From: Rhodococcus spelaei
GTDB lineage: Bacteria > Actinomycetota > Actinomycetes > Mycobacteriales > Mycobacteriaceae
DNA length: 64,000 nt
Reading direction: 5' to 3'
Assembly (NCBI RefSeq): GCF_006704125.1
Contig: NZ_VIGH01000005.1
Span: 1 to 64,000 of the forward strand
Of this stretch, positions 12,696-30,794 are shown in pieces. Made by a program: the position numbers and the translations under genes. The notes under the pieces were generated by a model. It made no database searches, was not told the DNA's origin, and saw only the letters and a program-made list of their open reading frames with translations. Every line of letters begins with the position of its first letter. Positions within the stretch are counted from its first letter, which is position 1.

Positions 12696-15011
12696 TCAGT
12701 CGGCGGCGTACTCGGCTTCCCGTTCGACCTTCTCGATCACCTCACCCGGTACCCGGACCGGGCCGGGGGAGTAGATGACCGCCCGCAAGTCGCCGCCGTA
12801 CCGGAACGGCCCGCGCCGCTCGCGCAGGTCCCAGGACACCGGTCCGCGGGCGTCGACGCCGACCGAGATCCCGGTCCACGGGGCCATTCCCACCAACTGC
12901 ACCTGCCCGAGCAGGTCGGCGACGGGGACACCGTCGACGCGCACGGTGAAGTCCCAGCGCAGTCGCGGCCGGACCGTCGCCGTCACCTCGATCAGTCGGG
13001 TTCCCACAGGTACCGGCCCCGCATCCACCGAGGCGTACCGGCCGAAGCTGCCCAGTCCGAACAGCAGGTGGCCGTCCTCGACGTAGAGCAGGTAGCCGCC
13101 CTGCGGGTCGCCGTGTGCGACAAGGACGCCCTCGTCGCCCTCCCGGAAGCCGTCTCCGCCGAGTTCGGCACCAATCGTGAAGTCGCGGAAGGAGATCAGC
13201 TTCGACGATCGGTAGCGCTCGAGGGTCGGTGTGCCCGCCAGGATCCGGACCGGTCGCGACAAGGTCTCCTCCGTGGGTCGGCGGGCGGTGAGCCCGCCGG
13301 CGCTCACGAGCGGGAAGACGGTGTTCGCCCACGCCGCGTCGTCCCAGGCCCGCGCGAGTTCGGCCACCTTCTCCGGGTACCGGTCGGCGAGATCGTGGAG
13401 TTCGGTGGGGTCGGTGCGCACGTCGAACAGTTGCCAGACCGGCGCGTCGACGTCGGCGCCGGGATACAGGGCGAGCAGCTTCCAGCCGTCCCGGTAGAAG
13501 CCGCGGTTGCCGGTCATCTCCGTGTACTGCTCGGTGTGGGTGCTCTCGGCGCTGCGGTCACGCAACACGGCAGAGGCATCCACCCCGTCGAACTCCTTGG
13601 CGGGCAGCCCGTTCCGGACACTCGGCGCCTCGATGCCCGCGAGGGACAGCAGCGTCGGTGCGAGGTCGGTGACGTAGGCGAACTGGTCCCGGACTCCGTT
13701 GTCCGACTCCGGCTTTCGCAGCCCGGCAGGCCAGGACAGCACGAAGGGCACCCGCACACCGCCCGCGAACGACTGCCCCTTGTAGAACCGGAACGGAGTG
13801 TTCGAGGTCTGGGCCCAGCCACGCGGATAGTGCACGCCGAGCCTGGCCGTGCCGATCAGGTCCTCGTCGTGCGGCACGTCGCCCACCCACGAGGGGTCGG
13901 TGACGTGGGCGAACTGCGCGAAGTAGCTCCGGGTGCCTTCGGGGCCGCCCTCGGCCGTGCCGCCGTTGTCGGAGGTGAACAACACGATGGTGTTGTCGAG
14001 CTCGCCGAGTTCGGTCACGGTGTCGAGGATCCGGCCGATGCTCTGGTCGACCGAGTCGACCATGCCTGCATACACCTCCATATACCGGGCGAACCTGCGC
14101 TGCTGGTCGTCGGTGAGTGAATCCCAGGCAGGCACGTCGAAACCGGGCTCGGAGTTGCGCGGCGCCTGTGCGGTCTCCACGGGGAACAGCCCCTGTGCCA
14201 GCTGCGACGCAAAGCGGCTCTCGCGCAGCACGTCCCATCCTTCCGCGTACCGGCCGCGGTACTTGGCGACATCAGCCGGCTTGGCCTGGAGCGGCCCGTG
14301 CATGGCCACATGTGCGAAGTAGAGGAAGAACGGCTTGTCCGGCTCGTGTGCGCGCAGGTCCTTCAGGTACCCGACGGCCTTGTCGGTCAGATCGTCTGTG
14401 AGGTAGTAGTTCTCGGGGTACTCGTCCACGTCGACGACGGAGTTGTCCGAGACGAGTTGGTTCGGGTGGTAGAACGAATTGAGTCCCTCCAACGAGCCGT
14501 AGTACCGGTCGAACCCGCGCTGGGTGGGCCACGAGTCACGGCCGGCCCCGGGCCGCATGTTGGCGTCGCGGACCAAGTGCCATTTGCCCACCGCGTAGGT
14601 GGCGTATCCGTTGCCGCGCAGGATTTCCGGCAGCGTGAGCACGTCGTCGGCGAGTTCGAGGCGCAGGCCCGGGTAGCCGGGGTCGGCGTTGGCGACGAAG
14701 CCGTAACCCGCTCGGTGTGGGTTGATCCCGGTCAGGAGCGCCGCCCGGGACGGCGAGCAGAGCGGGGTGGTGTGGTAGTTCGTGAGCCGCACGCCGGAGG
14801 CGGCGAGGCGATCGAGGTTGGGGGTGTCGATCTCGGAGCCGAACGGTCCGATGTCGCTGTAGCCCATGTCGTCGATCAGGACGACGATGATGTTCGGCGA
14901 GCCCGGCTCTGCGGTAGGTGTCGGAGTCCAGGACGGGGTCGAGTCCGCGGTGGTCCGGCCGATGCGTCCGGCGAACCCCTCGTAGCCCCTGGCATGCGGC
15001 GGGATTGTCAT
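12696..15011 (-). CDS. Arylsulfatase-type sulfatase
   Basis: A 771-residue type I sulfatase without signal peptide, so probably cytosolic. The formylglycine site is CSPSR (Cys85) in TTPLCSPSRAALLTG. Metal ligands include Asp47-Asp48 in LIDDMGYSDIG and the later TSDNGG; GKWHL (142-146) carries Lys and His of the active site. It hydrolyses sulfate esters to release sulfate. Its ATG shares an A with the TGA of the upstream dioxygenase gene, so the two are translationally coupled. The C-terminal 170 residues form an extra beta-rich domain typical of long bacterial arylsulfatases. Confidence 0.9.
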   Translation of the reverse strand: MTIPPHARGYEGFAGRIGRTTADSTPSWTPTPTAEPGSPNIIVVLIDDMGYSDIGPFGSEIDTPNLDRLAASGVRLTNYHTTPLCSPSRAALLTGINPHRAGYGFVANADPGYPGLRLELADDVLTLPEILRGNGYATYAVGKWHLVRDANMRPGAGRDSWPTQRGFDRYYGSLEGLNSFYHPNQLVSDNSVVDVDEYPENYYLTDDLTDKAVGYLKDLRAHEPDKPFFLYFAHVAMHGPLQAKPADVAKYRGRYAEGWDVLRESRFASQLAQGLFPVETAQAPRNSEPGFDVPAWDSLTDDQQRRFARYMEVYAGMVDSVDQSIGRILDTVTELGELDNTIVLFTSDNGGTAEGGPEGTRSYFAQFAHVTDPSWVGDVPHDEDLIGTARLGVHYPRGWAQTSNTPFRFYKGQSFAGGVRVPFVLSWPAGLRKPESDNGVRDQFAYVTDLAPTLLSLAGIEAPSVRNGLPAKEFDGVDASAVLRDRSAESTHTEQYTEMTGNRGFYRDGWKLLALYPGADVDAPVWQLFDVRTDPTELHDLADRYPEKVAELARAWDDAAWANTVFPLVSAGGLTARRPTEETLSRPVRILAGTPTLERYRSSKLISFRDFTIGAELGGDGFREGDEGVLVAHGDPQGGYLLYVEDGHLLFGLGSFGRYASVDAGPVPVGTRLIEVTATVRPRLRWDFTVRVDGVPVADLLGQVQLVGMAPWTGISVGVDARGPVSWDLRERRGPFRYGGDLRAVIYSPGPVRVPGEVIEKVEREAEYAAD

Positions 15012-15955
15012 CAGCCGGCGACCCGGACCGGCTGGTCGATGGACGAGTAGTGCGAGGCGTCGCCCGTGACGATGCGGCTGCGCTCACCGTGGACGTTCAC
15101 CGGGACGTCGCCGGCCAGGGTGATCCGGCCGAGGCGTCGGCGCTGGCCGTCGTAGTCGTCGACGGCGTAGTGCTGGGTGGCGCGGTTGTCCCAGATCGCG
15201 ACGTCGCCCGCCTCCCAGTTCCAGCGGGTGGTGTTCTCGAGCCTGGTCACCCGTGCCTGCAGCAGGTTGAACAGGGCCTGCGACTCGACGGCCCCCAGCC
15301 CGACGAAGGACTTCACGAAATGCCCGAGCAGCAGCGAACGCTCACCGGTCTCGGGGTGCACGCGCACCACCGGATGCTCGGTCTCGTAGTAGGTGGACTG
15401 GAACTCCCGGCGGTACTCCTCGGTGTCGTGGTCGACGTCCTTCTCCGCGCCCGCCGCCGCGTAGTCGTAGACGTTGGTGTGTGTCGCCCACAGGTTCTCC
15501 ACCAGCGCCTTGAGTGGATCCGGCAGCGCGTCGTAGGCAGCGACGGTCGAGGCCCAGGTGGTGGAACCGCCGTACGACGGCAACAGTTCCGCGCGCAGGA
15601 TCGAGGCCTTGGGGATGCGGTCGACGAAGGTGACGTCGGTGTGCCAGCTGTTGGCGCGGCCGTACTCGGAGTCGATGGGCAGGATGCGGTCGCCACGTGA
15701 GGTGACGGTCGGGTGCGCGGTGGTCGGATCGCCGAGCAGCTGCGCGAACTCGTACTGCGACGTCTCGTCCAGGTGGTCCTGGCCGCGGAAGAAGATCACC
15801 TTGTGCTCGAGGAGGGCCTGTCGGATCAGCGAGACCGTGGCCGGGTCGAGGCCGCCGCCGAGGGCCACCCCGTCGATGCGGGCGCCGATGTGTGCGCCGA
15901 GCTTGACGACGGAGGCTCCCGTCGCGGTCGTCGGGTGTGCGAAATCGATGGACAT
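15011..15955 (-). CDS. atsK: Alpha-ketoglutarate-dependent sulfate ester dioxygenase (AtsK type)
   Basis: A 314-residue TauD/TfdA-fold enzyme. Iron ligands are His105 and Asp107 ([15 protein letters not shown]) and His262 ([21 protein letters not shown]); an Arg after His262 should bind alpha-ketoglutarate. The [14 protein letters not shown] block is close to AtsK and Rv3406, which cleave alkyl sulfates oxidatively to an aldehyde and sulfate. TauD would be the alternative, but the neighbouring sulfatase favours sulfate esters. ATG 15955 follows AAAGG; an upstream start at 16030 is less likely. Confidence 0.88.
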
Positions 15956-16096
15956 GTAAGGCCTTTCGATGACGGATGGAGTGTTGCCGGAGCTGCGGTC
16001 CAGGCAACCAGCGGGGTGGTGCGCGGCCAAGGCTTTCCGTCACGCTGATCGCAACCCGCGCCGATGTCACCGGCTCCGGACGGGATTTCCCCTCGG

Positions 16097-16126
16097 TTGG
16101 TGGAGAATTCGACGGGGTGCTAGCTT
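16097..16126 (+). promoter_or_regulatory. Promoter of the polycysteine leader ORF
   Basis: TTGGTG (16097-16102), 18 nt, TAGCTT (16121-16126), then 6 nt to ATG 16133. The start site coincides with the ATG, so the leader ORF should be translated from a leaderless mRNA. Confidence 0.55.
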
Positions 16127-16132
16127 GGCGAA

Positions 16133-16246
16133 ATGAATTCCGGCCGGCCTACCGCCCTGCGGGTCACCTACGTGACCGCCGCACTGGGCTCACGCCTGCC
16201 ACTGGCACGGGAACTGTGTTGTTCCCCCCGCGGTATCTGTCGCTAG
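16133..16246 (+). CDS. Polycysteine leader peptide (37 codons), putative cysteine attenuator
   Basis: ATG 16133 opens a 37-codon ORF whose C-terminus is RELCCSPRGICR followed by TAG at 16244. Three of its last nine codons are Cys (TGT TGT ... TGT), including a tandem pair, in a peptide with no other Cys. Leaderless short ORFs with Cys runs act as cysteine-responsive attenuators in mycobacteria: shortage of charged Cys-tRNA stalls the ribosome and releases the downstream operon. Here the downstream operon encodes a ROK regulator and an ABC importer, opposite to a sulfatase and AtsK, exactly where a sulfur-starvation switch would be useful. Protein function is not expected. Confidence 0.72.
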   Translation: MNSGRPTALRVTYVTAALGSRLPLARELCCSPRGICR

Positions 16247-16393
16247 TCCGCGCTGCCTGCTCTCACACGTCAACCCCGTTTCCGGCCGCCCTCTCGGCGT
16301 CGTCGGAGACGCGTCGGTGTCTCGTGTCGACGGTGGCGCTCGCTCACACCGTGTAGGTCTGTCCCCGCCAGGGGCGAAGTGCAAGGAATTTGC
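16247..16393 (+). promoter_or_regulatory. Possible attenuator region with three hairpins
   Basis: Between the leader stop and the ROK gene: GAGAC/GTCTC with outer GTCG/CGAC; ACGGTG/CACCGT (16330-16335 with 16347-16352), sharing two bases with the first; and CCCC/GGGG (16363-16366 with 16371-16374) just before the AAGGA ribosome site. Mutually exclusive pairing is plausible but no clear intrinsic terminator with a T-run is present. Confidence 0.35.
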
Positions 16394-17659
16394 GTGCTCA
16401 CGTCAACTCTGTCGTCCACGGCCGTGCTCACTCGGCCCACCCCACGTATCGCCAACCGGGTCCAGATCGTCCCCCCGGAACTCCGGGTCGCCGACACCCC
16501 GGCCGCCGCCGTGTTCCGGGTCGCGTGCTCGCGGGGCCCCATCGCCCGGGACATCGCCGCCAAGACCACGGGTCTGTCCACCGCCACGGTGAACCGCCAG
16601 GTCGCGGCCCTGCTGGCGGAGGGTCTGCTGCGCGAGCGTGCGGACCTCACCGCCTCGGGCGCGGTGGGCAGGCCGCGGGTGCCCTTCGAGGTCAACCACG
16701 AGCCCTACCTCACCATCGGTATCCACATCGGCGCGGTGGTCACCGGCATCGTCGCCAGCGACATCCGGGGCAAGGTGCTCGGCGCCGTCGAGATCTCCAC
16801 CCCGGCGGGCCCGCAGGAACAGGCGCTGGCCCAGATCACCCGCAGCGCAGGGATGTTCGTCTCCCGCTGGCACAAGCGCAGGCCGCTGTGGGTGGGGGTC
16901 GCGCTCGGCGGACGGGTCGACGCGACCACCGGTCGGGTCGATCACCCGCGGCTCGGCTGGACGGACGCCCCGGTCGGCTCCGTCATCGGCGAGGGCCTCG
17001 GACTTCCGGTGTCCGTCGCCGCACACGTCGAGGCGATGGCCGCCTCCGAGTTGCTGCTCGCGCCACAGCGTCCCGGCGACACCCCGGCCGCGGGCACCAG
17101 CCTGTACTTCTACGCCAGGGAGACCGCGGGGGTCGCAGTCACCATCGACGGCCGCGTGCACACTCCGTCCAGCGGACCGGGTTCGATCGTGCACCTGCCC
17201 ACCGGCTCTTCGGCTCGGTGCTCCTGCGGAGCTCGCGGCTGCCTCGAGGCCACGGTCAGTGACCGGGCAACGATCGCCGCGGCCCGCGACGCCGGAATCC
17301 TCACCGACACCGACGAGCGGCCTGCCATCGCCGCCGTCTACCGCGCCGCAGCGGCGGGATCGATTCCGGCCCACGAACTTCTGGTCGAGCGAGCCCGCGT
17401 GCTCGGTCGCACCGTCGCGATGCTGCGCGACCTGTTCAACCCGGATCGGGTGATTCTCGGCGGCCAGGCCTTCACCGAGTACCCGGCCGGAATCCCCCAC
17501 GTCGCGGAGGCGTTCGCGCACACCTCGAGCCTGACCCGCAAGGACATCCGGATCACCGGTTTCGGCAACCGGGTCCAGGAGTTCGCCGCCGGCGTCGTCT
17601 CGCTCAGTGCGCTCTACGCCGACCCGCTCACCTCCATGCGAAGGACCTTCCCCCAGTGA
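16394..17659 (+). CDS. ROK-family transcriptional regulator
   Basis: A 421-residue protein: an N-terminal winged helix (VFRVACSRGPIARDIAAKTTG with STATVNRQVAALLAEGLL) followed by an ROK kinase-like domain. The zinc motif CSCGARGCLE lies at 276-285. GTG 16394 follows AAGGA by 6 nt. Rv0485, a ROK regulator, occupies the equivalent place between the SDR and mshA in M. tuberculosis, so this may be its counterpart with new neighbours. ROK regulators sense sugars or related ligands; here it heads an importer operon and its GTGA overlap with the next gene couples them. Confidence 0.85.
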   Translation: MLTSTLSSTAVLTRPTPRIANRVQIVPPELRVADTPAAAVFRVACSRGPIARDIAAKTTGLSTATVNRQVAALLAEGLLRERADLTASGAVGRPRVPFEVNHEPYLTIGIHIGAVVTGIVASDIRGKVLGAVEISTPAGPQEQALAQITRSAGMFVSRWHKRRPLWVGVALGGRVDATTGRVDHPRLGWTDAPVGSVIGEGLGLPVSVAAHVEAMAASELLLAPQRPGDTPAAGTSLYFYARETAGVAVTIDGRVHTPSSGPGSIVHLPTGSSARCSCGARGCLEATVSDRATIAAARDAGILTDTDERPAIAAVYRAAAAGSIPAHELLVERARVLGRTVAMLRDLFNPDRVILGGQAFTEYPAGIPHVAEAFAHTSSLTRKDIRITGFGNRVQEFAAGVVSLSALYADPLTSMRRTFPQ

Positions 17660-19254
17660 GCACTACGTACACCGCCCTCGACCGGCGCACCTTCTTCCGG
17701 GGCGCGGGCCTGACCGCCGCCGCGATCTTCGGCACCGGACTGCTGGGAGCCTGCTCCTCGGCGGTCGACGAGCAGAAGGCGGGTGCGGGTGCCGCGGCGT
17801 CGGGCACCCCCGTCCGCGGCGGCACCCTCAAGACCGGCATCACCACTGACGTGATCCCGTCGACCTTCCTCACCAACACCTCCGGCGCGACCACCGTGAT
17901 CGGGCTCGCCTACGACAGCCTGATCCGGTATCCGCACGACAAGGTCGAACCCGGTCCGCGACTGGCGAAGTCGTGGAAGCCGGCCGACGACGGGCTGTCT
18001 CTGACCCTCGACCTTCGAGACGACGTGACCTTCCACAGCGGACGGCCGTTCACGTCGAAGGACGCGGAGTTCTCGATCCGCACCTACGCCGACCCGAAGT
18101 GGACGGCGCAGCTCCGCAGCACCGCCGCCGCGATCACCGCGTTCGACACCAGCGACCCGCATCGGCTGGGGTTGACGTTCGCGCACCCGCTCGGCAACAT
18201 CTTCGACCTGCTCGACACGGTGCCGATCCTCGACAGCGAGTCCATCGACAAGCTCGCGGCGGGAGAGGCGTTCGTCGGGACCGGACCGTTCACCTTCGTC
18301 TCGCGCACTCCCAACACCGCGCTGGTCTTCGAGCGCAACGAGCACTACTGGATCCCGGACCGCCCGTTCCTGGACCGGGTCGAGGTCGCGATCATCCCGG
18401 ACGCGCAGGCACTGCTCAGCTCGCTGAAGTCGGGGCAGGTTGCCGTGGCTGGCGGATTGAACTATCGCGACACCGAAACGCTCGGTAAGACAACGGGATT
18501 CCAGTCGGTCTCGCTCGACGGCGCCGAGCTGCAGGTGTACGTCGGCGCCAACGTCACGCACCCCGCGCTCGCCGACGTCCGGGTCCGCAAGGCGATCGCG
18601 TACGCGGTGGACCGCGACCGCGTCATCGCCGAGGTGTTCCGGGGATCCGGCTACCCGGTGAACCTGCCGTGGCCCAAGACCTCGCCGGCGTACGACGAGG
18701 CGAAGAACAAGACCTTCGTCAGGGACGTGGCCAAGGCGAAGACGGTGCTGGCCGAGTACGGGTCCCCGGTGCCGACGCTGCCGCTGACCTACCAGGCGGG
18801 CAACCCCTTCTACGAGGCCACCGCGCAGATCGTGCAGGCCAACCTCGCGGAGGTCGGCATCCCCGTCGAACTCGACCCGCAGGAGGGTGCGGCGTTCGTC
18901 AAACAGCTCATCGGCGGGACGATTCCGGGCCTGTGGACGACGTTCCACTCGTGGGCGCAGTACGTCCCGTCGACGCTGACCGTGAGTGCGTACCCGTTCA
19001 ACGCGCTCAAGAACGCCTCGCACTACGAGAACCCGGCGTACGTGAGCGCCGCCGACGCGGCGTGGCGGGTCGCGGACGGCACCGGTGCGGAGGCGAAGGC
19101 CAAGTATCAGGCCGTCAGCGACCAGTTGCTGGACGGGTTGTTCCTGGTGGAGATCGGCGTCGTGCTCAACAAGCTCGCGACCGCCCAGAAGGTGCACGGC
19201 ATCGACTGGACCAAGCGCTCCGAAATCGTCTACACGGACACCTATCTGGCCTGA
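17656..19254 (+). CDS. ABC transporter substrate-binding lipoprotein (SBP_bac_5)
   Basis: A 532-residue family 5 solute-binding protein. The N-terminus has a twin-arginine motif (DRRTFFRGAG, Arg10-Arg11) and a lipobox LGAC (Cys33), so it is a Tat-exported lipoprotein. The body shows LAKSWKPADDGLSLTLDLRDDVTFHSG and VRKAIAYAVDRD, family 5 landmarks. Members bind peptides, nickel, opines or sulfur compounds such as glutathione; context suggests a sulfur-containing ligand such as a sulfate ester or sulfonate. GTG 17656 overlaps the ROK stop. Confidence 0.87.
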   Translation: MSTTYTALDRRTFFRGAGLTAAAIFGTGLLGACSSAVDEQKAGAGAAASGTPVRGGTLKTGITTDVIPSTFLTNTSGATTVIGLAYDSLIRYPHDKVEPGPRLAKSWKPADDGLSLTLDLRDDVTFHSGRPFTSKDAEFSIRTYADPKWTAQLRSTAAAITAFDTSDPHRLGLTFAHPLGNIFDLLDTVPILDSESIDKLAAGEAFVGTGPFTFVSRTPNTALVFERNEHYWIPDRPFLDRVEVAIIPDAQALLSSLKSGQVAVAGGLNYRDTETLGKTTGFQSVSLDGAELQVYVGANVTHPALADVRVRKAIAYAVDRDRVIAEVFRGSGYPVNLPWPKTSPAYDEAKNKTFVRDVAKAKTVLAEYGSPVPTLPLTYQAGNPFYEATAQIVQANLAEVGIPVELDPQEGAAFVKQLIGGTIPGLWTTFHSWAQYVPSTLTVSAYPFNALKNASHYENPAYVSAADAAWRVADGTGAEAKAKYQAVSDQLLDGLFLVEIGVVLNKLATAQKVHGIDWTKRSEIVYTDTYLA

Positions 19255-19279: not shown

Positions 19280-20239
19280 ATGGTCCGATACCTCGCGCGC
19301 CGGCTGCCGTCGGCGGTTGCCGTTCTGCTGCTGGCCTCGCTACTGATCTTCTTCGTGTTGCGGCTGGTGCCGGGCGACCCGGCCACCAGCCTGGCCGGTC
19401 CGGATGCCTCGCCGGAAGCCGTTGCCGCAATCCGGCATTCGCTCGGCCTCGACCGGTCGATCCCCGCCCAGTACGTGGCGTGGATCGGCTCGGTCGCGAC
19501 CTTCGACCTGGGACGGTCGTACGTGATCGGCGGTCAGATCTCCGACCTCGTCGTCGCCGGGCTCGTCAACACCGTGGTACTCGCCGCGACGGCCCTGGTG
19601 CTGGCGCTGGTGGTCGCGTTGCTGCTCAGCGTGGCGGTCGTGGTGTGGCCGAAGCGGTGGCTGACGAGTCTGGTCGCCGGTTTCAACACGGTCGCGGTCG
19701 CGCTGCCCCCGTTCGTCAGCGGCGTGCTGCTGGTGCTGGTGTTCGCGGTGCTGGTCCCGGTGTTGCCCGCGGGCGGCATCCCACCGGGCGGTTTCCTGTC
19801 CCGGCCGGACATCTCCGCGCAGTACCTGCTGCTGCCGGCGGTGTGCCTGGCCTTGCCGGTCGCCGCCGCACTGACCCGGTTCCTCAGCGAGTCGCTGCGC
19901 ACCGAGATGCGTCAACCTTACGTGCTCACCGCCCGTGCACTCGGGGTGTCCCGGTGGAACCTGGTCAGCCGCAGCGCTCTTCGCAACGCGCTGCCGACCA
20001 TGCTGACCGTGCTCGGCCTGCAGACCGGCCAGCTCCTCGGCGGCGCGGTCCTGGTCGAGGCGATCTTCGCCTGGCCCGGCATCGGCCAGCTGATCGAGCA
20101 GGGCATCAGCCGGCGCGACTACCCGGTGGTGCAGGTGCTGCTGCTGATCTCGGTCTCGGTGTTCGTGCTCGTGCAGTTGGTCACGGACGTGGTGCACGCC
20201 TACCTCGATCCGCGGATCCGAATCGGGGGAACCTCATGA
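19280..20239 (+). CDS. ABC transporter permease, DppB type
   Basis: A 319-residue membrane protein with six predicted transmembrane segments. The N-terminus MVRYLARRLPSAVAVLLLAS and FFVLRLVPGDPA are hallmarks of DppB/OppB permeases; the EAA loop is EMRQPYVLTARALGVSRW (about 215-232). A GAGAGG site precedes ATG 19280. It forms the heterodimeric channel with the next gene. Confidence 0.9.
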   Translation: MVRYLARRLPSAVAVLLLASLLIFFVLRLVPGDPATSLAGPDASPEAVAAIRHSLGLDRSIPAQYVAWIGSVATFDLGRSYVIGGQISDLVVAGLVNTVVLAATALVLALVVALLLSVAVVVWPKRWLTSLVAGFNTVAVALPPFVSGVLLVLVFAVLVPVLPAGGIPPGGFLSRPDISAQYLLLPAVCLALPVAAALTRFLSESLRTEMRQPYVLTARALGVSRWNLVSRSALRNALPTMLTVLGLQTGQLLGGAVLVEAIFAWPGIGQLIEQGISRRDYPVVQVLLLISVSVFVLVQLVTDVVHAYLDPRIRIGGTS

Positions 20240-21114
20240 GCGTCACCGAGATCGACGATCCGGCGGTCGCGGACCGGGCGTTGCCCGAGCGGCCTGCCCG
20301 GCGCCGCGGGGCGGTCGCCGCGCTCACCCGGGGGCAGGGACTGGTCGGGGTGGTGCTGGTGGTCGCGGTGGCCGCGGCCGGCCTGCTGGCGCACTGGCTG
20401 GCGCCGTTCGGGCCGAACGAGCAGATCGCGGGCGCGAACCTGCTCGGTCCCGGCGGCGAGCACTGGCTCGGCACCGACCAGGTCAACCGCGACGTGTACT
20501 CGCGGGTGCTGCACGGCATCGCGATCAACCTCGAGATCATCCTCGTCGCGGTGCCGATCGGCGCGCTGATCGGGTCGCTGCTCGGCCTGGTGTCCACACT
20601 GCACCCGGTCAGCGACGTGATCGCCCAACGACTGTTCGACGTCGTGCTGGCCTTCCCCGCTCTGATCCTGGCGATCGCGCTGGCCGCGATCATCGGGCCG
20701 GGCACCGCGACGGTGATCGTGGTGATCGTGGTCGCCGAGATTCCGGTCTTCGGCCGGACGATCCGCACCCAGGTGCTCCGGATCCGCGAACAGCCGTTCG
20801 TCGAGTCCGCGGAAGTGATCGGGGCCGGCCGATGGTGGGTGCTGCGCACGCACATCCTGCCGCACACGCTCGATCCCTTGGCCGTTCAGATCGCGCTGTC
20901 GATGTCGATCGCGGTGTTCGTCGAGTCCGGCATGAGCTTCGTCGGCATCGGTGTCCGGCCGCCCGAGCCCTCCCTGGGCTCGATCATCGCCGACGCCGTG
21001 CCGAACCTGGACGTCAACCCGGCCTTCGCGATCGGGCCGCTCGTCGTGGTCGCGGCGCTGGTGCTCGGGTTCCTGCTCATCGCCCAGGCGCTCGGCTCGG
21101 CGCGCCGGGCCTGA
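20236..21114 (+). CDS. ABC transporter permease, DppC type
   Basis: A 292-residue permease: a cytoplasmic N-terminus, a first membrane segment at about 36-53, HWLGTDQVNRDVYSRVLHG (the DppC signature), and the EAA loop EQPFVESAEVIGAGRWWVL. ATG 20236 overlaps the stop of the DppB-type gene (ATGA). Confidence 0.9.
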   Translation: MSVTEIDDPAVADRALPERPARRRGAVAALTRGQGLVGVVLVVAVAAAGLLAHWLAPFGPNEQIAGANLLGPGGEHWLGTDQVNRDVYSRVLHGIAINLEIILVAVPIGALIGSLLGLVSTLHPVSDVIAQRLFDVVLAFPALILAIALAAIIGPGTATVIVVIVVAEIPVFGRTIRTQVLRIREQPFVESAEVIGAGRWWVLRTHILPHTLDPLAVQIALSMSIAVFVESGMSFVGIGVRPPEPSLGSIIADAVPNLDVNPAFAIGPLVVVAALVLGFLLIAQALGSARRA

Positions 21115-21149
21115 CCCCCTTCGGGGAACCTGTCACAGAGGAGTACACG

Positions 21150-22793
21150 ATGGCTGACACAACCATCCTCGACATCGAGAACCTCACCATCCGTTTCGGG
21201 GAGGCCGCCCCGGTGGTCGACGGGCTGAGCCTGTCCGTGGGCAGGGGCGAGATCGTCGCGCTCGTTGGCGAATCGGGCTCCGGGAAGTCGCTGACGGCCA
21301 AGGCCGCGCTCGGACTGTTGCCCGACGGTGCCACCGCGACCGGGTCGATCACCCTCGGCAGGGACGAGGTGATCGGTGCCGACGAGGCCGCGCTGGCCGC
21401 GTTGCGGGGGACGCGTGCGGCCATGGTGTTCCAGGAGCCGCAGACCGCGCTCAACCCGGTGCAGAAGGTCGGCTGGCAGATCGCCCAGGCGTTGCGCGCG
21501 CACGGACGGGTCAGCCGCTCGCAGGCACGGGAACGGGCCGTGGAACTGTTGCGGCTGGTGGAGATTCCAGATCCCGAACTCCGGGTGGACTGGTATCCGC
21601 ATCAGCTGTCCGGGGGACAGAAGCAGCGGGTGGTGATCGCACTGGCGCTGTCGGGCGAGCCCGACCTGCTGATCGCCGACGAACCGACCACTGCTCTCGA
21701 CGTGACGGTGCAGGCGGAGATCCTGGACCTGCTGCGTACGCTGCGCGACGATCGGGGCACCGCGATCCTGCTGATCACCCACAACATGGGCGTGGTCGCG
21801 GATATCGCGGACCGGGTCGCGGTGCTCCGCCACGGACTGCTCGTCGAGGAACGCGGTGTGTACGAACTGTTCTCGGCGCCGCGGGAGAAGTACACCACCG
21901 CACTGCTCGCGGCGGTGCCGAGGCTTGCGGTGACCGACGCGTCGGAGCCGGCCGCGCCGGACCCGGTGCTGGCCGTGCGCGCGCTGGACGTCGTCTATCC
22001 GGCGAGGCTGGGTAACAGGGAGTTCCACGCGCTGCGCGGGGTGAGTCTCGACGTCGGCGCCGGGGAGGTGCTCGGACTGGTCGGCGAATCCGGTTCGGGG
22101 AAGACCACTCTCGGGCGCGCTGCGCTGGGCGTGATCCGTGCGAGCGCCGGGTCGGTGACCTTCGACGGCGTGGATCTCGGCGCTGCCGGCACACGGGAAC
22201 TGCGCGGCCTGCGTAAGGGGCTGGCGCTGGTGCACCAGGACCCGGCCGCCTCGCTGGACCCACGCCGGAGCGTCGGGGACAGTGTCGCCGAACCGCTGGT
22301 GGTGCATCGCGCCGCGTCCGGCGCGCTGCTGCGGGCCCGGGTGGACACCCTGCTGGAGTCGGTGCGACTGCCCCGGTCGTTCGCGGCCAGGAGACCCGCC
22401 GAACTGTCCGGCGGTCAGCGCCAACGCGTCGCGCTGGCGCGGGCGCTGGCCCTGGCGCCGCGACTGCTGGTCGCCGACGAGCCGACCAGCGCGCTCGACG
22501 TGTCCGTGCAGGCGGAGGTGCTCGACCTGTTCGCCGACCTGCGTGAGGAGTTCGCGTTCGCCTGCCTGTTCATCAGCCACGACCTGGCCGTGGTGAACCA
22601 GGTGGCCGACCGTGTCGCGGTGCTGCGCGGCGGTGAACTGGTCGAAATCGGTTCTACCGCTGCTGTGTTCGGCGATCCGCGTGAGGAGTACACCCGGGGG
22701 CTGCTGGACGCGGTGCCGATTCCTGATCCGGTGGCGCAGCGGCGCCGGCGTGCGCAGCGGTCCGTCTCCGAGGCGCTGTCCGCTGCGGGCTGA
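21150..22793 (+). CDS. Fused twin ABC transporter ATPase (DppD-DppF type)
   Basis: A 547-residue protein with two complete nucleotide-binding domains. Domain 1 has GESGSGKS (40-47), signature LSGGQKQR and DEPTTALD; domain 2 has GESGSGKT (about 312-319), LSGGQRQR and DEPTSALD. This is a single-chain equivalent of the DppD and DppF pair and completes the importer. CAGAGGAG precedes ATG 21150. It ends the operon; the next gene is convergent. Confidence 0.92.
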
Positions 22794-29465: not shown

Positions 29466-30794
29466 GTGACGCCAGCGCAGAACAACAGGTTGAGACGGGT
29501 GGCCGTGATCTCGGTCCACACCTCCCCCTTGGCGCAACCGGGAACCGGTGACGCGGGCGGCATGAACGTCTACGTGCTGCAGAGCGCGCTGCAACTGGCG
29601 CGCCGCGGCGTCGAGGTGGAGATCTTCACCCGGGCGACCTCCTCGTCGGACGAGCCGGTGGTCGAGGCCGCGCCCGGGGTGCTGGTGCGCAACGTGGTCG
29701 CGGGACCGTTCGAGGGGCTCGACAAGCACGACCTGCCCACGCAGCTGTGCGCCTTCACCGCGGGCGTGCTGCGCGAGGAGGCGCACCACGAACCCGGCCA
29801 CTACGACCTGGTGCACTCGCACTACTGGCTCTCCGGTCAGGTCGGCTGGTTGGCCCGGGACCGCTGGGGAGTGCCGCTCGTGCACACCGCGCACACCCTG
29901 GCCGCGGTCAAGAACGCCGCACTCGCGGAGGGGGACACCCCGGAGCCGGTGGCCCGGCAGATCGGCGAGCAGCAGGTGGTCGCGGAGGCGGACCGCCTGG
30001 TCACCAACACTGCCGACGAGGCCGGCCAGCTCGTCGACATCTACGGTGCCGACCCGAACCGGATCGACGTGGTCGCCCCGGGCGCTGACCTGACCCGCTA
30101 CCGGCCGGGCGACCGCGCGGCGGCCCGGGCCGAGCTCGGCCTCGACCCCCACGAGCTGATCGTCACGTTCGTCGGCCGCATCCAGCCGCTGAAGGCCCCC
30201 GACGTGCTGCTGCGCGCCGCCGCGGCGCTCAGTGAGCGCGACCCGGAGTTGCCGCTTCGGGTGGTCGTGGTGGGGGGACCGTCCGGCACCGGGCTCGAAC
30301 GGCCCGACTCCCTGATCGAACTGGCCGCGACGCTGGGCATCGCCGCCCGGGTGACGTTCCTGCCGCCGCAGCCGCCCGACCGGCTGGCCCAGGTGTACCG
30401 CGCGTCGGACGTCGTGGCGGTGCCGAGCTACTCCGAGTCCTTCGGCCTGGTCGCGCTCGAGGCGCAGGCCTGCGGCACCCCGGTGGTCGCGGCCGACGTC
30501 GGCGGCCTCGGCGTCGCGGTCAGCGGCGGGGAGACCGGACTGCTGGTGCCCGGTCACCGCACCGACGACTGGGCGGCGGCGTTGGGATCGCTGCTCCGCG
30601 ACCCGGACCGGCTCGCGGAGATGGCCCGCAACGCGCCGAAGCACGCCGCGAACTTCTCCTGGGAGCACACCGCCGACGGGCTCCTCGAGAGCTATCGCCG
30701 GGCCGTCGCCGGCTACCGCGTCAACACCGAGCTCACCGCGCGCCGGGGCCGGGGCCCGTGGAAACTACGCAGACTGGGGAGCGTGCGAGCATGA
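29466..30794 (+). CDS. mshA: D-inositol-3-phosphate glycosyltransferase (mycothiol synthesis)
   Basis: A 442-residue GT4 enzyme. Recognisable MshA text includes [76 protein letters not shown] and [25 protein letters not shown] (the EX7E-type motif). It transfers GlcNAc from UDP-GlcNAc to 1L-myo-inositol-1-phosphate in the first step of mycothiol synthesis. GTG 29466 follows CAAGAT and 6 nt. It overlaps the next gene by ATGA. Confidence 0.96.

Follow-up and report, generated by a model that had tools for sequence, protein, structure and literature searches.

A leaderless-type ORF with a conserved cysteine codon pair ahead of a ROK regulator gene in Rhodococcus: a probable sensor of cysteine supply

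Does a short cysteine-rich ORF in Rhodococcus spelaei serve as a sensor of cysteine supply, and, if it does, for which gene? The ORF lies on a 64,000-nucleotide stretch of DNA (contig NZ_VIGH01000005.1, positions 1 to 64,000, referred to as the window), in front of a ROK-family regulator gene and the genes of an ABC importer. The original prediction regarded it as a leaderless leader that couples this importer to cysteine, and considered such coupling a new use of a mechanism known from mycobacteria. The leader ORF (16133..16246, + strand) consists of 37 codons, starts with ATG and encodes the peptide MNSGRPTALRVTYVTAALGSRLPLARELCCSPRGICR, whose C-terminus is ELCCSPRGICR; TGT is the codon at all three Cys. 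The hexamer TAGCTT (16121-16126), located exactly 6 nt 5' of the leader ATG, belongs to an extended -10, TGC-TAGCTT (TGCTAGCTT; 16118..16126, + strand), and the predicted arrangement, an ORF ending CC-SPRGI-C-R placed 6 nt after this box, is thus borne out by the sequence. The presumed stall site is the TGT TGT pair of codons 29-30 (16217..16222, + strand), which is conserved in unique cores of related leaders.

After a spacer of 147 nt the leader is followed by the ROK gene (16394..17659, + strand; Pfam PF00480, E 6.8e-24), preceded by the Shine-Dalgarno (SD) sequence AAGGA (16383..16387, + strand). The GTG at 16394 behind AAGGA, rather than that at 16379, is most likely its start, because relatives (six genomes) keep the SD and this GTG and not the upstream one. 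The ROK stop and the GTG start of a family-5 solute-binding protein (17656..19254, + strand; Pfam PF00496) overlap as GTGA (17656-17659), a coupled junction, and on the same strand come permease 1 (19283..20239), permease 2 (20239..21114) and a double ABC ATPase (21135..22793, with an approximate start set where homologues begin matching). In the divergent direction, on the - strand, a TauD-family dioxygenase (15011..15955; Pfam PF02668, E 1.2e-55) and a sulfatase (12696..15011; Pfam PF00884, E 2e-65) are encoded. The gene map and the Pfam matches therefore agree with the predicted position before a ROK-importer operon and opposite sulfatase and TauD genes. The gene mshA (mycothiol glycosyltransferase) is found at 29496-30707, about 12 kb 3' of ROK.

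A two-hexamer consensus scan of 15950-16450 detected no sigma-70 promoter, and the promoter call rests, as a consequence, on the -10 and its conservation; the missing -35 match counts against the reading of the ORF as an attenuator. When both strands of the window were scanned for TANNNT followed by 6-8 nt, RTG and an ORF of 12-60 aa, three leaderless-like candidates emerged, among which the leader ORF was the only one with at least two Cys in its last 10 residues. The start is separated from the end of TANNNT by 6 nt (18 cases) or 7 nt (60 cases) in all 78 leaders compared (77 from the best 80 of at least 490 ROK loci, plus the window), and TGN stands ahead of TANNNT in 68 of the same 78. This uniform spacing supports the predicted leaderless type, and, judged by ORF placement, the leader transcript should begin at or adjacent to the leader ATG. 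The leader peptide matches no curated model (0 in NCBIfam at E<=1, 0 in Pfam at E<=0.01), and no Rfam element is matched at the leader at E<=1.

Relatives were collected by a ROK-alignment scan, from which the best 80 of at least 490 stretches were kept, a set in which the window's own genome may be absent. These loci come from Rhodococcus, Rhodococcoides, Antrihabitans, Aldersonia, Prescottella and Nocardia, with R. maanshanensis being the closest among them. A leader precedes ROK in 77 of these best 80 loci, as found by a motif search in the 900 nt that precede the ROK match; at three loci, in Antrihabitans stalactiti (L128), Rhodococcoides trifolii (L154) and Nocardia takedensis (L159), the motif was not found. 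A profile built from 8 leaders gives matches at E<=0.1 in 279 of the 401 family genomes; about 234 of these are solid once the 45 listed matches weaker than 1e-3 are set aside. When the order was searched, 27 of the 397 genomes gave a match at E<=0.001, and all 27 belong to the window's family, the non-family share of the 397 not being given. Among 20 selected profile matches from 19 genomes, 19 lie before a ROK homologue (50-74% identical) and one (L096) before an importer.

Conservation was evaluated on the 78 leaders, which comprise 68 unique cores. The core VTYVTxALGxRLPxxRELCC has been kept while most of its wobble bases drifted: V11, T12, V14, T15, L18, G19, R21, L22, P23, R26, E27, L28 and C29 are invariant in 68/68 unique cores, and position 30 has Cys in 62 cores and Arg in the other 6. 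Wobble entropy at the T, L, G, R and P codons amounts to 0.7-1.7 bits, about the ROK level, given that 73 four-fold invariant ROK columns have a median entropy of 1.5 bits and none of the 73 has zero entropy. Within the window's clade, codons 11-30 give dN of 0.000-0.025 versus dS of 0.056-0.654 (15 pairs, 6 sequences). The reality of the ORF is hence beyond serious question, as orthologues in relatives, low dN compared with dS and the window-scan control leave a negligible chance that it is fortuitous. Non-conservation of the Cys codons, which would have told against the original prediction, was not what was found for the pair at 29-30, although the C-terminal Cys of the window is not conserved, being Ser in L033 and L034.

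Codon choice at the pair is equally constrained. Cys29 and Cys30 are encoded by TGT in 128 of 130 cases over the 68 unique cores, while the ROK genes avoid this codon (5 TGT to 255 TGC in the 80 ROK genes of the best 80 of at least 490 loci) and nine window genes have TGT and TGC at 3:9; the E27 codon is GAA in 65 of 68 unique cores. Such a TGT preference, together with an invariant Cys29 and with Cys runs that persist where the peptide differs, makes it improbable that the ORF is a plain upstream ORF which adjusts ribosome loading or buffers ROK translation without sensing cysteine. The conserved sequence could also point to a small Cys protein, binding metal or acting in redox, that works in trans; this is very improbable, as the tail is variable, the placement is of the leaderless type in 78/78 leaders, and all 20 selected loci have the ORF in cis before ROK (19) or an importer (1).

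The second part of the question, namely which gene is served, receives a different answer from that originally given. A close relative of the binding protein is found in 36 of 151 family genomes, at 38 places, and importer loci of the window and 29 relatives were surveyed, with 20 larger regions examined. Among these 20 regions, all five same-genus relatives have leader, ROK and importer arranged as in the window, so the peptide does occur in relatives upstream of the same operon, as a search proposed with the prediction was to establish. Over all 29 relatives, the leader stands before ROK-importer in 5 and immediately ahead of the importer, without an intervening ROK gene, in 2 (L037 and L046), and a motif search did not find it in 22. 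At two of these motif-negative loci, L009 and L018, a different ORF with Cys codons and leaderless-type placement is present. The one at L009 lies 265 nt ahead of the importer match and resembles a leader copy that has decayed after a frameshift. In the best 80 of at least 490 ROK loci, which reach at most 6 kb to each side, the importer is behind ROK in only 4, all of the window's clade, and a TauD relative (at least 55% identical) is present in 22. Across the family, therefore, the leader belongs mainly to ROK, and the importer cannot be maintained as its general target.

The importer looks like a later addition downstream of an older leader-ROK unit. Three genomes (G145, G174 and G141) possess two leaders each, of which one precedes ROK and the other the importer. 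Leader and mshA lie 6.8-13.3 kb apart in the window and in these three genomes, and a leader-ROK-mshA neighbourhood is common to them, from which we infer the order of events, with the importer seemingly inserted later.

More distant genera help to separate the Cys codons from the peptide around them. In genus g29, a ROK homologue was present in 7/7 genomes searched, with a gap between the end of its match and the mshA match of 82-145 nt in five (G052, G316, G238, G205 and G029), 0.9 kb in G146 and 3.8 kb in G085. Leaderless-type GTG-start ORFs with three, mostly TGT, Cys codons in a row precede ROK in 3 of 7 (L245, L247 and L249), and a strict -10 scan gave no leader at L243, L244, L246 and L248. 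The g29 peptides bear no resemblance to the rhodococcal and nocardial core; because Cys runs are kept in otherwise unrelated peptides, the Cys codons are what persists. In genus g30, one of three loci (L250) has an intermediate leader form. In genus g9 (L241 and L242), the leader-ROK unit is hundreds of kilobases from mshA.

A second conserved element lies within the leader. Codons 11-15 contain the inverted repeat GTCAC-CTAC-GTGAC (16163..16176, + strand), in which V11 is always GTC and V14 always GTG (68/68 unique cores each), and the two wobble bases pair mutually. These two codons are also kept in all 11 leaders inspected from other genera, and the g30 leader L250 has a disrupted repeat. 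The predicted GTCAC-N4-GTGAC hairpin has a mean of -10.2 kcal/mol versus -3.3 for other leader windows, and base pairs beyond the five of the repeat are not well kept; being invariant, the repeat offers no covariation. Its possible roles include RNA polymerase pausing and a DNA site. A genome search returned 21 exact GTCAC-N4-GTGAC sites against 4 for a backwards-read control, one with an NTAY centre; an operator function in a regulon is unsupported by this site count, which does not speak decisively against one either.

Conservation of the non-Cys codons to this extent exceeds the need of a simple Cys counter, a point against the attenuator reading in its plainest form, and raises the possibility that the nascent chain VTYVTxALGxRLPxxREL acts in the exit tunnel as an arrest peptide, either strengthening the stall at Cys29-30 or sensing another signal besides Cys-tRNA. 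The invariant residues between 11 and 29, the varied wobbles, a dN near 0, and a core that begins at residue 11 in 76/78 leaders even though residues 2-9 vary are all consistent with it. It is nevertheless unlikely, since the g29 leaders keep Cys runs without the motif, E27 is replaced by V or M in the g9 leaders, which lie outside the conservation set, and part of the conservation is at the nucleotide level, as seen in the V11/V14 wobbles and in an anti-SD on codons 19-23 in some Rhodococcoides. A broader version could be conceived, in which a Cys-tRNA-gated arrest peptide uses the conserved 28-residue chain and the inner RNA hairpin to stall at Cys29-Cys30, controls ROK across Rhodococcus, Nocardia and relatives, and also drives an importer of the sulfate-ester type, which lies behind ROK in one clade and directly after the leader in three other genomes; this, too, is to be held only tentatively, as an unlikely proposal.

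How might a stall at the Cys codons reach the ROK gene? Terminator-like sites are absent from 15950-16450 (0 found), and attenuation of the trp type, with an intrinsic terminator after the leader, was rejected accordingly. A small hairpin, CCCC-GCCA-GGGG (16363..16374, + strand), is situated just 5' of the ROK SD, and three C-G pairs of its stem are kept in 6/6 clade sequences. In Nocardia, a segment with complementarity to the ROK SD region directly follows the Cys codons, and 2 of 5 pairs in the pre-SD stem each have one sequence changed on both sides with pairing kept (17 of 19 sequences aligned, L163 and L170 left out); the compensation is limited to 2 of 22 predicted pairs, both in the pre-SD hairpin. 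RNAalifold, applied to the entire intergenic region in six clade sequences, proposed long-range pairs that were not trusted.

Pairing between the Cys-codon zone (0 to +12 from codon 29) and the SD was compared for each sequence's own SD and 25 SDs of other clades, using 77 sequences (L162, having no SD, was dropped) assigned to clades by species names, with sequences within a clade not independent. The score of the own SD relative to those of other clades was 0.99 in Prescottella, 0.92 in Rhodococcoides and 0.79 in Nocardia, three clades in which the zone fits its own SD better than foreign ones, and 0.65 in opacus, 0.60 in the window's clade, 0.47 in the ruber-type, 0.38 in Antrihabitans, 0.18 in erythropolis and 0.14 in Aldersonia; for all sequences it was 0.69, and 0.56 for a zone farther 5' (-84 to -18). 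Codons 19-23 carry the best anti-SD in some Rhodococcoides. Owing to these clade-matched values, sequestration of the SD has to be graded clade by clade: the comparison supports it for Prescottella, Rhodococcoides and Nocardia, and it appears weak or absent in the clades other than these and the window's. The value of 0.60 in the window's clade and those of 0.65-0.14 in five others weigh against the attenuator reading. So does folding with a ribosome in place, in which mean SD accessibility was nearly equal for a ribosome at Cys29 and one at the stop (0.33 vs 0.30; whole RNA 0.21), and 12 of 77 sequences favoured the stall and 4 the stop by more than 0.1. The motif is also missing at 22 of the 29 importer loci and, by the strict scan, at 4 of the 7 best g29 ROK loci.

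Leader translation might instead control the access of Rho to the 147-nt spacer, rather than access to the SD. The lack of an intrinsic terminator agrees with such polarity, and Rho has been proposed, weakly, for mycobacterial cys leaders in the accessible part of PMC1262725. This route is distinctly unlikely, as the SD-proximal hairpin and the clade-matched anti-SD favour control of translation in three clades.

Taken as a whole, the comparative evidence makes it likely that the leader senses cysteine supply as a leaderless Cys-codon attenuator, which would derepress ROK and the importer at low cysteine; given the selected Cys codons and the ROK-importer context, the Cys-responsive attenuation originally suggested stands as the best reading. 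When Cys-tRNA is scarce, the ribosome would stall at codons 29-30, and the leader RNA would refold to expose the ROK SD, a translational attenuation to which transcriptional polarity may be added. The exposed SD would then allow ROK plus the importer to be made, and ROK, likely a sulfur-scavenging regulator, would act on the divergent sulfatase and TauD genes and others. With ample cysteine, the ribosome would finish the leader and the SD would stay sequestered. The hairpin of codons 11-15 may make RNA polymerase wait for the first ribosome. As far as sequence comparison can tell, the leader probably enables the cell to turn on a regulator of sulfur scavenging, together with an importer, when cysteine is short.

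Several consequences follow from this attenuator model. It predicts that cysteine supply, and not sulfate alone, gates the scavenging of sulfate esters in Rhodococcus-type soil bacteria, and cysteine gating of scavenging is relevant to biodesulfurization strains. The leaders also provide a comparative system for asking whether an attenuator needs Cys codons only, as in the g29 form, or a nascent peptide and an RNA hairpin as well, as in the rhodococcal and nocardial form. Moreover, they suggest that the mycobacterial Cys leader at this position is one instance of an ancient, widely distributed control over a ROK sulfur regulator.

The window's ROK gene very probably corresponds to Rv0485/Msmeg_0932, which we take to be the ROK gene next to mshA (Rv0486), an identification that agrees with the g29 ROK-mshA pairs and their Cys leaders. 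A leaderless Cys-enriched small ORF before Rv0485/Msmeg_0932 is described in a figure legend (Shell 2015, PMC4633059, Fig 7B), and for this reason the claimed new use is new only in part: the coupling to an importer is, and a Cys leader before the probable ROK counterpart has already been published. In papers citing Canestrari 2020, as far as their accessible text goes, mycobacterial leaderless Cys ORFs are described as cysteine-responsive attenuators. The kind of mechanism is thus known, and what looks new is the sequence-conserved leader, the inner repeat and the importer coupling behind ROK in the window's clade; in the open-access literature consulted, to which subscription papers did not belong, no description of the conserved leader in Rhodococcus and Nocardia or of a leader-ROK-importer operon was found.

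A rhodococcal parallel is available from R. qingshengii IGTS8, in which, in the accessible portion of PMC8557817, the ROK gene peg5940 is divergent to sulfatase and TauD, with mshA close in gene numbering, and the ROK protein is 18-33 fold up in dibenzothiophene (sulfate-starved) compared with sulfate culture; the main text does not contain the term 'leader'. From its arrangement, this locus would be the R. qingshengii locus L112 of the relatives compared, where TauD starts 412 nt upstream of the ROK match and no importer lies behind ROK. The induction in IGTS8 fits the attenuator reading but does not show the leader as its cause.

Among the known systems, the mycobacterial leaderless Cys uORFs in the accessible text of PMC4633059 share with the window's leader the leaderless-type start, a 3'-proximal placement of Cys codons and a position before sulfur or other genes; the window's leader differs in its core conserved across genera, its two contiguous Cys, its inner repeat and the importer behind ROK. 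The leaders of acnes and of cbs in B. longum, in what is accessible of PMC1262725, similarly have Cys codons near the stop and no terminator hairpin found, but they precede other downstream genes, and no core of the window's type is mentioned there. The ROK domain of CysR/SsuR-type regulators is present in the window's regulator (PF00480), and ROK matches in 6 of 9 presumably Corynebacterium genomes are only 28-35% identical. In C. glutamicum, CysR/SsuR likewise tie a ROK protein to sulfur acquisition, whereas the cysR and ssuR transcripts begin at their own start codons and hence have no leader ORF, according to the accessible text of PMC2580772.
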